Notes under the pieces: model-generated
Database searches by the model: none
Told to the model about the DNA's origin: nothing
What the model saw: only the letters and a program-made list of their open reading frames with translations
Made by a program: the position numbers and the translations under genes
In this document: piece by piece, positions 5,519 to 27,623 of the stretch
How positions within the stretch are numbered: position 1 is the first letter of the stretch
Layout: each line of letters starts with the position of its first letter
NCBI GenBank assembly: GCA_913055205.1
Contig: CAJXJN010000019.1
Span: forward strand, 1 to 35,710
Origin: an uncultured Sulfurovum sp.
GTDB taxonomy: Bacteria; Campylobacterota; Campylobacteria; Campylobacterales; Sulfurovaceae
Direction: 5' to 3'
DNA: 35,710 nucleotides

Positions 5519-8500
5519 ATGTTTGAAAAACTATTAAGATTCTTTGTCAATAACAGCAGACTGAACTATTTTCTATTTATCCTGGTTTTTCTTTCAGGCA
5601 TTGCGCTTTATATAAAAACACCCAAAGAAATATTCCCCTCTTTTGAACTCGATATGGTCTCTGTCAATGGGTACTATGCAGGATCTTCTATCGATATGCT
5701 GGATAAAATGGCTGTAAAAGAGATAGAGAGTGAAATTAAAAATATCGACGGTATCGATAAAATGGCAACTGTCATCTCTGCAGGCAAGTTCAACATTATT
5801 TTAGAACTGGAAAAAAGAGTCGATAAATACAATACCGCAGATAAAGTCAAAGATGCCATCGCACTCAGCAGACAGAATCTGCCCAGTGACATGGATGAAC
5901 CCAGTGTCAAAGTCCTGGAGATCAAAAAAGATCTTATGCGTATCGCAGTTTCATCCGATCAAGCTTCACATAGTGAACTCATAGCTGCTGCAAACAAACT
6001 AAAAGATAAAATCAGCCTTTTAAAAAATATTTCTGAAATTTCCATCTTCGGAGATTCAGATAAATATTATGATATTCGTCTTCATAGTGAAAAGATACGT
6101 GCATTGGGTCTGGATGAGAACAGTATCATCGCTGCACTCTCCGGACTTTCCTACATTTTTCCCATAGGAACCATAGAAGACAGCCAAAAAGGGCACTATT
6201 TTATCTCTACCTATAATGGTCCCAAAGATGCACAAAAGATGCTTCAGAGCCGGATCATGGTTTCAGGTAAAACACTTTACCTGAAAGATATCGCGACCGT
6301 TTCCAAACGCTATGAAGACAGTGCTACAATGTTCTCCATAGATACCAAACATGCTGTTGACCTCTCTGTTAAACAAAGCAGCAAAGGAAATGCCTTAGAG
6401 CTTTCAAAAGCCATTATGGACCTTGTAGAGCAAAGTAACATAACAGGCGGTAATATCACCTATACGATCCACGATGACAGATCTGAAGCGATCAAGGATC
6501 GTCTCAATATTGTCATCTCAAATATTTTACTGGGTCTCATTCTAATTGCTCTTTTGGTAGCACTTTTGATCAACAAACGCATGTCTTTCATCATCTCTTT
6601 GGGTATTCCTACCTCTTTTGTGATGGGTGCGATCTATCTCTATGCTGCGGGATACTCCATCAATATGATCTCTCTGATCGGGGTACTCATCGCACTGGGG
6701 ATCATTGTTGATGATGCCATTGTTGTAAGTGAAAATATTCAGCAGCATATTGAAGAGGGGATGGAACCAAAAGAAGCTGCCATTCTTGGGGCAAAAGAGA
6801 TGTTCAAGCCTGTGACCATTGCTTCTCTTACTACACTCTTTGCTTTCATCCCCGCCCTTATGATGAGCGGAACCATGGGAGAAGTCATCAAACTCATACC
6901 TATTGCTGTATCTGTGCTTGTTTTAGCCTCTCTTATAGAGTCTTTTCTCTTTTTGCCTATTCATGCAGCACATGTCTTAAAAAAAGAGCAAAAGACCACA
7001 TCATGGGAAAAAGCCAATCATTTATATAGCAGAATCATCCACTTTTTTATGCACTATAAAAAAACTTTTTTACTGCTCTTTATCATACTTGTACCACTTT
7101 TTATCATCATAGGTATTAAAAACAGTAAATTTCAAATGTTTCCGCAATTTGATGCCACTACACTGAGTATCACACTGAAAGCCAATGTCAACACAAAAAC
7201 GGAAGAGACCATCCGGTACCTCAAAGCGATCGAAAAAGACCTCTATGAAAGAAAAGAGGAATTCTTTATTTCACATGTGGGTTCTGTTGCCGGATGGAGA
7301 AGAGACAGTGCAGGTAACTCTGAAACCTACCCTTATGTAGGACAGATCACCATTGAACTGCAAAAACTTAAAGCACAGAATTTTGTAGATAAGTTCATTA
7401 CACCTACATTGAGTTTCTATTATGACAAAGAGGGGCGTACCAGAGAAGAAAAATCTGTTAAGATCGCAAACCGACTACGGCATTTTTTAGAAACACAAGC
7501 GTATAAAAAGAGATTTGATCTTTCTGATCTTGCTATCGTAGAGAAAAAAGTAGGTCCGATCAAATCTGATCTGAAGATCGGTCTTGTCTCGGATAATGAT
7601 CAGAGAGTAATGCATTATGTCGAGAAGATAGAAGCAAAACTTCGCAGCATAGAGGGTATTGTATCGGTGAACGATGCCATGAATTACGGTGTGGATGAGA
7701 TAAAACTGCAAGTCAACAGTTATGGAGAATCTTTAGGTCTCTCAGAACAAATGCTGGGCATCCTCCTCTCTAATGCTTATCTGGAGAGAAAAATAGCTTT
7801 AGCCTTTGACAGTAATAATCTGCTGGAGCTAAAAATTAGAAGTGAAGAGAAAGACTCCCTGGATGCACTGAAGAATTTCCAGATCAAACTTGACAGCAGC
7901 CAGTTTGTTTCACTTAAAGATGTCGTACATTTCAGGGTCATTAAATCATTTGAAAAGATCATCAAAGACAGTGGTGAGAAGAACTTTTATGTCTATGCCA
8001 ATGTTGACAGTAAAAAGATCACAGCCACAGAGACACTTAAACAGATAGATCCTATTTTAGAAGAGGCAAAAAAAGAAGGTATCAAGATCATACTAAAAGG
8101 AGAGGAGGAGAAGAAGAAAGAGCTTAAAAATGACATGATGATGGCAAGTACGGTCGCCATGCTTCTTATCATGCTCTCGTTACTCTACCTTTTTAACTCT
8201 TTTAGAGAGACATTTATGATGATGTCCGTAATACCTTTTGCCTTTCTAGGTGTACTCATAGGACACTTCGCACTTGGGATCAATCTTTCCATGCCATCTA
8301 TCATCGGTATGCTTGGTCTCTCCGGAGTCGTGGTCAATGACGGTATCATCATGGTCATGAATCTTAAAAAAGCACATAATATGGAAGAGATCTTCCTCTA
8401 TGCCTCCAAAAGATTCAGACCCATTATACTCACTTCCGTCACCACACTCATCGGTCTGAGTTCTCTTGTCTTTTTTCCTACAGGACAAGCTGCCATTTTC

Positions 8501-16591: not shown

Positions 16592-17941
16592 TTACTTGTC
16601 TGAATCCGTTATCGTATCAGAAAGCATGAATGCAAGTTCCAATGCCTGTGAAGCATTCAGTCTTGGATCACATTGTGTATGATAACGGCTTGCAAGTCCT
16701 TCATCCGTGATGGCACAGGATGTACTACCCGTACACTCTGTTACATCATTACCTGTCATTTCAAGATGTATGCCGGCAGCAACAGTACCCATCTCTTTAT
16801 GAATAGCAAAGAACTGTTCCACTTCTGAGAGGATATTGTCAAAATCTCTTGTTTTGAAGCCTGTGGAACTCTTCTCTACATTTCCATGCATAGGATCACA
16901 GGACCAAACCACATTTTTCCCCTCATCTCTTACACGCTTAAGAAGCTTAGGGAAATATTCACCTATTTTACTTGCACCCATACGAACGATCAGATTGAGC
17001 CTTCCTTCTTCATTGTCCGGGTTAAGGGCATCAATAAGTTCAATAAGCTCATCTTCTTCCATACTTGGCCCTACTTTACAGCCAATAGGGTTCTGTATCC
17101 CTCTGAAATATTCAATATGGGCTTCCTTGAGATCTCTTGTTCTGTCCCCTATCCATAACATGTGCGCTGAACAGTCATACCATTCACCTGTTTCGGTATC
17201 TTTCCTTGTCAATGCTTCTTCATAGTTCAAAAGCAGTGCTTCATGTGAAGTATAAAGTGTTGTCTGATGAAGTTGAGGCATAGTGTCACTGTTCAGTCCG
17301 CATGCTGCCATAAAATTCATCGCATGGTCTATTTTATCACTCAACTCATCATATCGTTTACCCAGCGGATTGTCTTTAATAAAGTCAAGATTCCACTGGT
17401 GTACTTTGTTGAGATCAGCTAAACCGCCTCTTGAAAATGCACGCAAGAGGTTAAGTGTTGCTGCCGATTTGTTATACGCTTTGATCATATTATCAGGGTT
17501 GGGTACTCTGGCCTCCTCGGTAAATTCAATACCGTTGATAATATCACCGCGGTAACTTGGCAGTTTCACTCCCTCTACTTCTTCAAAGTCCGAAGATCTC
17601 GGCTTGGCGAACTGTCCTGCAATACGTCCTACTTTAACCACTGGCTTACCGGTTGAATACATCAACACCATATTCATTTGAAGCATAAGTTTAAAAAGGT
17701 TCTTTATGCTCTGCGCATTAAAGTCGGAAAAGCTTTCTGCACAGTCTCCTCCTTGAAGTAAAAATGCTTCACCTCGTCCGGCTTTGGCTAATTTCTCTTT
17801 GAGTCTTCTTGCCTCACCGGCAAAAATAAGTGGGGGGTAGGAACTCAATTCTTCTTCTACTTTTTTAAGCTGCTCTTCATCTTGATATGTTGGTTGTTGC
17901 TTTATAGGAAAATTTCTCCAGCTACTTGGTGTCCAACTCAT
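16592..17941 (-). CDS. aroG: Class II 3-deoxy-7-phosphoheptulonate (DAHP) synthase
   Basis: The enzyme condenses phosphoenolpyruvate and erythrose 4-phosphate, opening the shikimate pathway used by aroE and trpE nearby. The protein is 449 residues, normal for the plant/actinobacterial class II type that campylobacteria also use. Marks include [11 protein letters not shown] with the metal-ligand Cys, [53 protein letters not shown] and [15 protein letters not shown] minus-strand TATAAT (17991-17996) and AAGGAT just before the ATG support the start at 17941. It is a single gene, opposite in strand to the two-component pair. The gene symbol follows common annotation of this class and is not specific. 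Confidence 0.94.
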
Positions 17942-17990: not shown

Positions 17991-17996
17991 ATTATA
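17991..17996 (-). promoter_or_regulatory. Probable -10 element for the DAHP synthase gene
   Basis: TATAAT reads on the minus strand 50 bases before the aroG start, with AAGGAT as ribosome-binding site downstream. The DnaA-box-like cluster lies immediately upstream of this promoter (18046-18182). Confidence 0.5.
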
Positions 17997-18077
17997 GCTT
18001 AAAAAATATGAAAAATGACTATGATTTGGAAAAAAGGTTTATTTTTGTGGATAATTTTTATCTTTTAATAGAAAGAT

Positions 18078-18114
18078 GACTTATTCACCCCTGTGAATAG
18101 GAGGTGAATAAGTC
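18078..18114. repeat. 12-bp perfect inverted repeat within the octamer cluster
   Basis: GACTTATTCACC (18078-18089) is exactly complementary to GGTGAATAAGTC (18103-18114) across a 13-base loop that itself contains another GTGAATA. It could be a palindromic protein-binding site or a hairpin in the transcript leaving cmoA. Confidence 0.6.
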
Positions 18115-18130
18115 TTATTAAATAATATAA

Positions 18131-18160
18131 AAAAGGAGTGAATAACTCTGAATTATTCAC
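18131..18160 (-). terminator. Possible intrinsic terminator of cmoA
   Basis: Read on the minus strand, GTGAATAA, a 7-base loop and TTATTCAC form a hairpin 24 bases past the cmoA stop, followed by TCC and a run of six T. This is a plausible but A/U-rich terminator. Its two arms are also two of the DnaA-box-like octamers. Confidence 0.45.
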
Positions 18161-18183
18161 GCAATAACATACTGTTATTCACG

Positions 18184-18894
18184 TTATTTTTTCGCTATGA
18201 ATGTTACAAAGTTCGCCCACTGAAAAACGGTATCTACTTGTTTGAATCCTGCATCTTTACACATCTGTATATTCTCTTCTATAGTGAATGGGATCAATAC
18301 ATTTTCCAATGCTTCTCTTTTTTGTGCTATCTCATATTCACTGTAGCCCTGCTCTTTCTTATAGTCATAATAGATATCTATAAGCACTTTATCCAGTTTT
18401 TTATCCTTGAAAACTACTTTTTCGGAAAAGATGAATATCCCCTCATCCTTCAATCCGGTATAAAGTTTTTTCATAAGCTCCATACGCTGCATAGGACGGA
18501 TGAACTGCAGGGTATAGTTTGCCACGATCACATCTTCATCTTTATACTCATAGGTCAACATATCAGCAAGTTCCAATTCAATATCGGCACCAAAAGCCTG
18601 ACACTTCTGCAAAGCTCTGTCCAACATGGCTTGAGAATTGTCCAAGCCTTTAAGTTGCATTTTTGTATGCATTTTACTATGCAGGTCCAGTAAGAACTTT
18701 GCCGTAGAAGAACCAAGATCCAGCACTTTTTTACCCTCTTCCTGCTCTGCCAGGATCAATGCTATGACCAATTTCCGTACCTCATCATAAAAAGGTACCG
18801 AACGGCTCAGCATATCATCAAATACAGAAGCCACGGCTTCGTCAAATTCAAATTTCTTCTCTATTTTTTTAGCAAATACTTTATCTTCTTTCAC
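18184..18894 (-). CDS. cmoA: Carboxy-S-adenosyl-L-methionine synthase
   Basis: CmoA makes carboxy-SAM from SAM and prephenate, the donor used by CmoB to finish the wobble-uridine modification cmo5U in tRNA. The protein is 236 residues, the usual length. It has a Rossmann methyltransferase fold, with [16 protein letters not shown] as SAM loop and [12 protein letters not shown] next. Family marks are [51 protein letters not shown] and the C-terminal VFQWANFV. Prephenate links it to the shikimate pathway genes nearby. The start is GTG at 18894. A second, truncated copy of this 5' end lies upstream (18905-19069), so initiation here may be secondary to a rearrangement. Confidence 0.92.
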
Positions 18895-26457: not shown

Positions 26458-27078
26458 TTATCGTTTTTTTCTTGCCAAAAGTTTCAAAAGCAAAGTATTC
26501 AGCACGAAGGCAGGAGGAGAGCCTAGGTCCAATGCAATAAAAGCATTTGAAAACAGTGTCAGCGTTTTTTCATCTAAATCATAACCTTGTGAATGGATAG
26601 CTTCTTTACTGATGCGTTCTACAAGTAATTTCATCGTTTTAGTATCTGTACGTTTATGAGTTTGTATAAACTCATACACTGTAGCCAAAGAGAGCCCTGC
26701 TACATCCAACCCTAATTCTTCTTCTTGTAATGCTTGAGAAAGCATAGTGATAGGCAACCGTGAACGTATGGTATCTAAGATAGTCGCCTTGCTTTGCGTC
26801 AGGATAATAAACTCTTTTCTAGGTGGCGGTTCTTCTATGACTTTCAAAAGTTTGTTCTGTACTACAGGAGAAAATGTTTTAGCGGCAAGCAGAATAACCG
26901 TAGTCTCTTCACTTGCCATGTAGGCTTTTTCTATAGCAAGTTTCGCATCTTCAACCAGAAAAGTGTCTTCTTTGATAATCTTAACGAAACGTTCCGTTGT
27001 TTTTGACTCTTCAAGTTTAGCGATGGTACCTTCTATGTCACTTGTGATGATTACCTGACTCACTAATGCAATACTCAT
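26458..27078 (-). CDS. holB: DNA polymerase III delta-prime subunit, short campylobacterial type
   Basis: HolB is a clamp-loader subunit that helps place the sliding clamp on primed DNA. The protein is 206 residues, much shorter than gammaproteobacterial HolB. It keeps the central part of the AAA+ fold: AAKTFSPVVQNKLLKVIEEPPPRKEFIILTQ with the conserved EEPP, then TILDTIRSRLP with the SRC-like SRL motif. The zinc-binding N-terminus of larger HolB is absent. It overlaps hobA by four bases (ATGA), and the lysC-hobA-holB-folP order matches that in Helicobacter by recall, which supports the call. Confidence 0.82.
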   Translation of the reverse strand: MSIALVSQVIITSDIEGTIAKLEESKTTERFVKIIKEDTFLVEDAKLAIEKAYMASEETTVILLAAKTFSPVVQNKLLKVIEEPPPRKEFIILTQSKATILDTIRSRLPITMLSQALQEEELGLDVAGLSLATVYEFIQTHKRTDTKTMKLLVERISKEAIHSQGYDLDEKTLTLFSNAFIALDLGSPPAFVLNTLLLKLLARKKR

Positions 27079-27623
27079 GATTCTAAATCTAAATCACCAA
27101 AAAGAGCTTCTGAGATGGTCATATCAAAAAGTTTATAAAGTTGTAAGAGTTTAATATCTAAAAGAGGGTCAGAACTTCGAAGGGAAAAACTATTTTGTAC
27201 CTCTTCATCCATGATCCATAAAAAGCTATCATCATTTCTATATGCTTCCTTGGTGAATGGATGGCCACCCTTACCGATATACCAAATATAATATCCATTC
27301 GGGTAAGAGATATCCAACATATCTTCAAGTAGCTGCAACTCTTGTGCAGAGGTTAAGTTCTGCAAATTTGGAAAAATATCAGTGAGTTGGTAAAAAGGTA
27401 AAAGCGGTCTGTTTTTTTGTAGCTCATTTACTCTACTCAGTATATATTTTCCAAACCATCTACGCGGTTCATCTGTAATGATCAGAACAGTCTTTCCCTC
27501 AAGTACTTGAGAAACAGCACTTTTAACTAAAGGTGCCCACTCATAGCGGTACTCTTCCATCCACGAGAAGCAGGACTCCTCCTCCCTTATAGTGTCAAGT
27601 GTCCATTTTAAGAGCTTCTGCAT
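27075..27623 (-). CDS. hobA: HobA, DnaA-binding replication initiation factor
   Basis: HobA is a campylobacterial protein that binds DnaA domains I-II and promotes orderly DnaA assembly at the origin, as DiaA does in Escherichia coli. The protein is 182 residues, matching the family. Its SIS-like fold is suggested by KTVLIITDEPRRWFGKYIL, LPFYQLTDIFP, YYIWYIGKGGHPF and SFLWIMDEEVQNSF. DPLLDIKLLQLYKLFDMTI near the C-terminus is also characteristic. Neighbours are lysC (eight bases upstream) and holB. Its presence supports assigning the bulk of this window to Campylobacterota. A cluster of DnaA-box-like sites lies 9 kb away at 18046-18182. Confidence 0.88.
   Translation of the reverse strand: MQKLLKWTLDTIREEESCFSWMEEYRYEWAPLVKSAVSQVLEGKTVLIITDEPRRWFGKYILSRVNELQKNRPLLPFYQLTDIFPNLQNLTSAQELQLLEDMLDISYPNGYYIWYIGKGGHPFTKEAYRNDDSFLWIMDEEVQNSFSLRSSDPLLDIKLLQLYKLFDMTISEALFGDLDLES

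Follow-up and report, generated by a model that had tools for sequence, protein, structure and literature searches.

The cluster of DnaA-box-like sites found between a cmoA-like gene and aroG of an uncultured Sulfurovum sp. may, judged from its sequence, be a non-origin accessory control site to which DnaA binds, acting by titration or by control of the nucleotide state of DnaA as datA and DARS do (estimated probability about 0.5). The chances that such a site would serve the control of initiation rather than the expression of aroG appear to us to be about even. The stretch of 35,710 nucleotides that was analyzed (the window) is contig C19 of a 1.66-Mb assembly of 47 contigs (G000). Seven DnaA-box-like sites had been placed at 18046-18182 by a sequence-only reading of the window, and all of them were recovered at exactly these positions, namely five copies of TTATTCAC, one CTATTCAC and one TTATCCACA. 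The features of the locus are:

16592..17941, minus strand: aroG, class-II DAHP synthase, the downstream neighbour
17991..17996, minus strand: TATAAT, the likely -10 element of aroG (each of the 76 upstreams examined has a TATAAT 32-65 bp ahead of aroG)
18046..18054, minus strand: single TTATCCACA, a box of the E. coli type, not found at the corresponding place in G022 and G063
18081..18088, plus strand: triplet box III, TTATTCAC, facing boxes I and II; 4-bp gap
18093..18100, minus strand: triplet box II, CTATTCAC, 3 bp after box I
18104..18111, minus strand: triplet box I, TTATTCAC
18112..18133, minus strand: AT-rich block abutting box I on its 5' side, the TATTATTTAATA part of which matches the block accompanying the triplet in relatives
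18138..18145, minus strand: accessory box TTATTCAC, kept in G022 and G063
18153..18160, plus strand: accessory box TTATTCAC, on the strand opposite to the box at 18138
18175..18182, plus strand: accessory box TTATTCAC, adjoining the cmoA stop
18184..18894, minus strand: cmoA-like methyltransferase, the upstream neighbour (Pfam identifies a methyltransferase only; the name cmoA is that of the sequence-only reading)
27075..27623, minus strand: hobA, encoding a DnaA partner (PF12163, E 1.8e-71)

The encoding of HobA 9 kb from the cluster, as previously pointed out, was corroborated by the PF12163 match; this proximity proves nothing alone, and a role of HobA at the cluster is putative. It also holds that dnaA is not in the window: in the assembly, a DnaA domain was matched once only, on contig C26, with dnaN and ruvC on either side, both of which were identified from their translations and not by family search.

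In the window, TTATTCAC occurs six times as compared to 1.98 expected copies, a number reached in 0/100 shuffles. When one mismatch was allowed, no excess was detected across the window (66 found, 77 expected), hence the signal is the cluster and not the window. The whole assembly holds 43 copies of TTATTCAC, five of which lie inside 102 bp at the cluster; the chance of finding five among 43 random points inside 102 bp anywhere is approximately 7e-11, a value computed post hoc with the cluster already known. The cluster is the densest TTATTCAC grouping of the assembly, and among the listed copies, pairs less than 200 bp apart occur only here and at oriC1 (positions 6020 and 6087 of C26), which disposes of the objection that the octamer might be common in intergenic hairpins throughout the genome. 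Over the whole assembly, the 43 copies of TTATTCAC fall short of the 99 copies of the octamer read backwards, with weaker deficits in G001 (60/81), G004 (51/69) and G036 (64/73), which hints at avoidance outside clusters.

Conservation of the three-box unit in the genus

Read in the direction from cmoA to aroG, the core of the cluster consists of boxes I and II in tandem, separated by 3 bp, and of box III, which faces them after a further 3-4 bp. A search for the pattern TTCAC-N6-TTCAC-N3/4-GTGAA detected this triplet at 83 places in 68/78 genus genomes, while the pattern read backwards as a control was found in 0/78. Of these places, 80 are located no more than 500 bp from aroG, in 66 genomes, 14 of which possess two copies there. 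One of the remaining three adjoins cmoA in G055, in which aroG is 6.6 kb off and neither TTATTCAC nor TTATCCAC is present in aroG's last 340 bp; the other two (G008:C28 and G037:C7) are at other loci. A separate count of upstream regions, which includes G055 and misses G033, gave 80 copies in 66/76 aroG upstreams. Conservation upstream of aroG in relatives, to which the sequence-only reading had pointed as a check, was thus found.

The strict triplet was missing from ten of the 78 genomes (G007, G011, G031, G051, G052, G059, G060, G061, G069, G072). Near-triplets were seen in G007 and G061, as well as in G008 at its aroG locus, and no aroG match was obtained for G011 and G051. The other six, G031, G052, G059, G060, G069 and G072, possess aroG with its TATAAT and no triplet, which indicates that the triplet can be lost. 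Conservation in the genus extends to the 22-bp AT-rich block that abuts box I on its 5' side. Moreover, G022 and G063 share the three accessory boxes of the window at the same spacing, and between G000 and G022 the bases of these boxes are identical at 24/24 positions, as compared to 10/21 in the spacers.

Sequence logos of the 80 copies force the TTCAC core by construction, and the conservation of the core therefore rests on a count of 60 copies from 54 genomes that were anchored on the AT-rich block, with no core required. In these copies the core positions carried 1.2-1.8 bits and the spacers 0.2-0.8 bits. Positions 1-3, which are degenerate in the epsilonproteobacterial DnaA box, carried 0.5-1.0 bits in box III and 1.0-1.4 bits in box II, and positions 1-2 of box I carried 1.7-1.8 bits.

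Box identity and related triplets at dnaA and elsewhere

The TTCAC core is described, from DnaA footprints, as the hallmark of epsilonproteobacterial DnaA boxes (PMC5043019), and the boxes of the cluster, with TTCAC at positions 4-8, fit this published core as had been proposed. Furthermore, the flanks of dnaA in the genus were compared using 30 loci, of which 28 were parsed correctly (L201 was not parsed and L202 was misplaced; some flanks end at the record end): the commonest NNNTTCAC in them is TTATTCAC, with 67/229 occurrences. An oriC1 triplet, TCATTCAC-4-TTGTTCAC-3-GTGAATNN, is present at 24/30 of these loci, the other six being four that are cut and the two that were not parsed. TTATTCAC is thus likely to be the DnaA box of the genus, and the boxes of the cluster are very probably bound by DnaA.

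As compared to oriC1 of Campylobacterales, located between ruvC and dnaA, the aroG unit has the same box sequence and a similar triplet of two tandem boxes and a facing third, whereas it is not beside dnaA, its gaps are 3 and 3-4 bp instead of the 4 and 3 bp of the genus oriC1 triplet, and its AT-rich block is not visible by eye in the dnaA flanks. In other genera of the family, 21/30 inspected loci with the triplet also carry cmoA and/or aroG (genera g2, g9, g88 and g89); one of the others (g88) carries dnaA, and eight, all from g3, have neither cmoA nor aroG nor dnaA in view. The family search yielded no triplet match in genera g4, g5, g6 and g8 (27 genomes), and in genus g7 the pattern matched in 13/34 genomes, at loci outside the 30 inspected. 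Among named records, boxes were found in 4/26 aroG upstreams (L011, L012, L013, L017) and were absent in the other 22, including L015, where cmoA adjoins aroG; these 26 were taken from 80 aroG loci, records of other phyla or classes being left out. The aroG of the window shows 87-93% identity to aroG of Sulfurovum sp. records.

Across the order, Sulfurovaceae included, the triplet was found in 165/398 genomes and its backwards control in 5/398. The tandem pattern, searched in the same range, is weak evidence alone, since its own backwards control also matches in many genomes. Among the first 30 listed tandem loci from other families, 26 contain the triplet (with GTGNA accepted as third box) and nine contain dnaA; 16 end at a record or contig end, as would be expected of records opened at dnaA (those of G085 and G276 begin there), and in 5 of the 14 loci that are not cut dnaA was not seen. 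The presence of like triplets beside dnaA in other families indicates that the cmoA-aroG unit resembles a displaced oriC1 box triplet. The triplet is not a universal mark of oriC1, considering the five uncut loci and a published comparison of epsilonproteobacterial origins which saw no common box pattern (PMC5043019).

Two further occurrences were observed. In genus g41 of family f10, a dnaB-type helicase gene is closely followed by a triplet with the geometry of the aroG unit (L255, L256 and L257, from G122, G136 and G175, at about position 1500; DnaB by Pfam in L255 and L257), 0.93-1.08 Mb into the record, which in G122 opens with dnaA. Genomes of genus g32 have in common a triplet TTCACAAGAGTTTCACAGTGTGAA that is found away from record ends (G380, G186, G217, G386 and G439 on C1, 0.87-0.99 Mb; G375:C1:143001) and that may lie inside a gene.

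Possible control of aroG and other explanations

DnaA might act here as a transcription factor that represses or activates aroG and thereby couples aromatic synthesis to the replication cycle. We regard this as a serious rival, if on balance a somewhat unlikely one. The proximity of 80/83 triplets to aroG speaks for it, as do the uniform orientation of the 80 upstream copies, none of which is reversed, and the fact that the unit remained beside aroG in G049 and G073 after relocation of cmoA; the latter counts against a role in initiation control. By contrast, in 66 upstreams triplet and TATAAT are 29 to 169 bp apart and not at the constant spacing typical of a simple operator, which weakens a promoter role while leaving room for it. 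Likewise, aroG of G055 has kept its TATAAT with no boxes nearby, at a distance of 6.6 kb from the triplet, and the six genomes mentioned above combine aroG and TATAAT with the loss of the triplet. We know of no case in which aroG is controlled by DnaA.

It is rather improbable that the octamers serve some other protein as operators, be it a repressor or an HP1021/Cj1509-type orphan response regulator. The boxes do form inverted pairs near a promoter, and Cj1509 is reported to bind TTTCACA at the C. jejuni oriC (PMC6052347). The Cj1509 consensus given there, WKTWWCA, does not fit, by inspection, the TTATTCA found in 65/80 copies of box I, and it does fit TTTTTCA, which is found in some copies of boxes I-III; a Cj1509-type operator was rejected on account of the mismatch of the commonest box. 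A different repressor is also disfavoured by the like triplets at oriC1 of other families and by the definition of the TTCAC core by DnaA footprints (PMC5043019).

Even less probable is that the repeats act as RNA, either as a hairpin ending cmoA transcription or as a leader switch. The window copy does fold strongly as RNA (z -5.5), and 40 of the 80 copies reached z < -2, with a median of -1.96. Nevertheless, the agreement between boxes I and III over positions 1-3 is 0.588 as compared to 0.580 after shuffling (547/2000 shuffles reach this value), which is no sign of covariation, and the agreement of boxes II and III, 0.504, is below the shuffled 0.563. In addition, the last triplet is upstream of the aroG TATAAT in 66/66 upstreams measured, so that an aroG leader starting there would exclude it. 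An Rfam scan of the locus returned two matches, both far below threshold, and a terminator scan of the locus returned no terminator-like site. An RNA hairpin was consequently rejected as the main cause of conservation because covariation was not detected, though half of the copies fold well.

A true or second replication origin can practically be dismissed, in spite of the cluster being the densest TTATTCAC cluster of the assembly and its triplet being oriC1-like, based on GC skew in the two genomes sampled and on the scarcity of trio-like motifs. In both genomes, G004 and G036, the skew has the same sign on either side of the locus, and its turns are near dnaA and at mid-chromosome. In G004 (2,562,277 bp, 20 stretches) it was positive in 12/12 stretches between 1.5 kb and 1.15 Mb and negative in 6/8 from 1.3 to 2.55 Mb, with exceptions at 1.45 and 2.4 Mb, and the locus, at 0.47 Mb, has positive skew on either side. 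In G036 (18 stretches) it was zero or positive in 11/11 stretches up to 1.05 Mb and negative in 6/7 later ones (the exception being at 1.8 Mb), and both flanks of the locus are positive, one barely (0.006). Within the window, the skew is negative on both sides of the cluster. CTACTA/TAGTAG, taken as a proxy for DnaA-trios, is nearly absent from aroG upstreams (3/76, each of 400 bp or less; a degenerate trio would escape this count), as compared to a box followed within 30 bp by a trio-like CTAC in 29/30 dnaA loci. Furthermore, the AT-rich block is 5' of the tandem boxes, whereas the trios of oriC2 are 3' of their box. The view put forward from the sequence, that a non-origin DnaA-box locus is more likely than oriC, is therefore upheld by GC skew and the trio proxy, and also by the match with boxes in the dnaA flanks of the genus, the conserved unit and the triplets beside dnaA elsewhere.

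A putative accessory site for control of initiation

HobA is the counterpart of DiaA. If the cluster is an accessory control site, DnaA would bind the triplet, i.e., the two tandem boxes and the facing third, with the accessory boxes alongside, and the site would alter the amount of free active initiator. This could occur either by holding DnaA at the site or, through DnaA paired head to head, by a change of its bound nucleotide, in the manner of E. coli datA and DARS, with HobA taking the part of DiaA.

In E. coli MG1655, two chromosomal places, which we take to be DARS1 and DARS2 from their map position and three-box pattern, were compared with the aroG unit. The first reads TTATCCACT-5-TGTGGATAA-3-TGTGTATTA, and the second also has two tandem boxes and a facing one. 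Shared with the aroG unit are this three-box core, for which the chance of the same topology with three boxes is about one in four, and the location at single chromosomal places away from oriC. The gaps differ: counted between 9-mers, they are 3 and 5 bp in DARS and 2 and 1-2 bp here (from gaps of 3 and 3-4 bp between 8-mers). In DARS, opposed boxes lead to head-to-head DnaA and to ADP release, and DiaA stimulates assembly on the core (PMC8682772). Similarly, datA and the B. subtilis DnaA-box clusters (DBCs) lie outside the origin and reduce untimely initiation, an effect for which it is important where they stand with respect to oriC (PMC4585315, PMC5010248). The aroG unit is likewise a DnaA-box cluster off the origin; datA relies on an IHF site, whereas none is known at the aroG unit, and C. 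jejuni is reported to be without IHF (PMC6052347).

The distance between unit and dnaA amounts to about 18-20% of the chromosome, on either arm, in G001, G002, G004, G036 and G010 (rounded sizes were used for G001 and G010), to 25.6% in G102 and to about 40% in G030. The E. coli distances from oriC are 0.10 for datA, 0.21 for DARS2 and 0.33 for DARS1 (PMC5010248, Table 1), so that the aroG unit, mostly at 0.18-0.20 from dnaA, is near DARS2 and differs from datA. Symmetric inversions about the origin would preserve such distances without selection.

As a non-origin DnaA-box cluster, the site belongs to a known kind; its architecture is new, and so, within the searches made, is its occurrence in the group. 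Its novelty for the group, claimed from the outset, stands within the literature covered: no such site was found in the accessible portions of work on non-oriC DnaA-box clusters in Campylobacter and Helicobacter, DARS with HobA, Sulfurovum DnaA and Campylobacterota DnaA boxes, a coverage with few subscription papers and no bioRxiv preprints. For C. jejuni, boxes outside oriC are described as evenly distributed and of unknown role (PMC6052347). A unit whose location is shared by the majority of the genus genomes and by several sister genera offers a concrete locus for tests of initiation control, and its likeness to both oriC1 and the DARS core ties origin architecture to accessory control sites.

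A more specific proposal, which we make tentatively, is that the family possesses a dedicated movable DnaA-control element composed of the AT-rich block and an oriC1-type triplet, a switch like DARS or datA in which HobA would stand for DiaA and some block-binding factor for IHF/Fis. If so, Campylobacterota, for which the searches showed none, would have a non-oriC element for control of the initiator, and half an origin would be seen as a possible source of such elements. On G008:C28 (L318, at about 1097), the AT-rich block and the triplet are found together away from aroG, which suggests that the two can move as a whole unit. In G021, a tandem TTATTCAC-N3-TTATTCAC is found close to the end of a contig (L157, G021:C41), with a second cmoA at a distance of about 4.7 kb, and the aroG locus of the same genome, on C30, has its own triplet.
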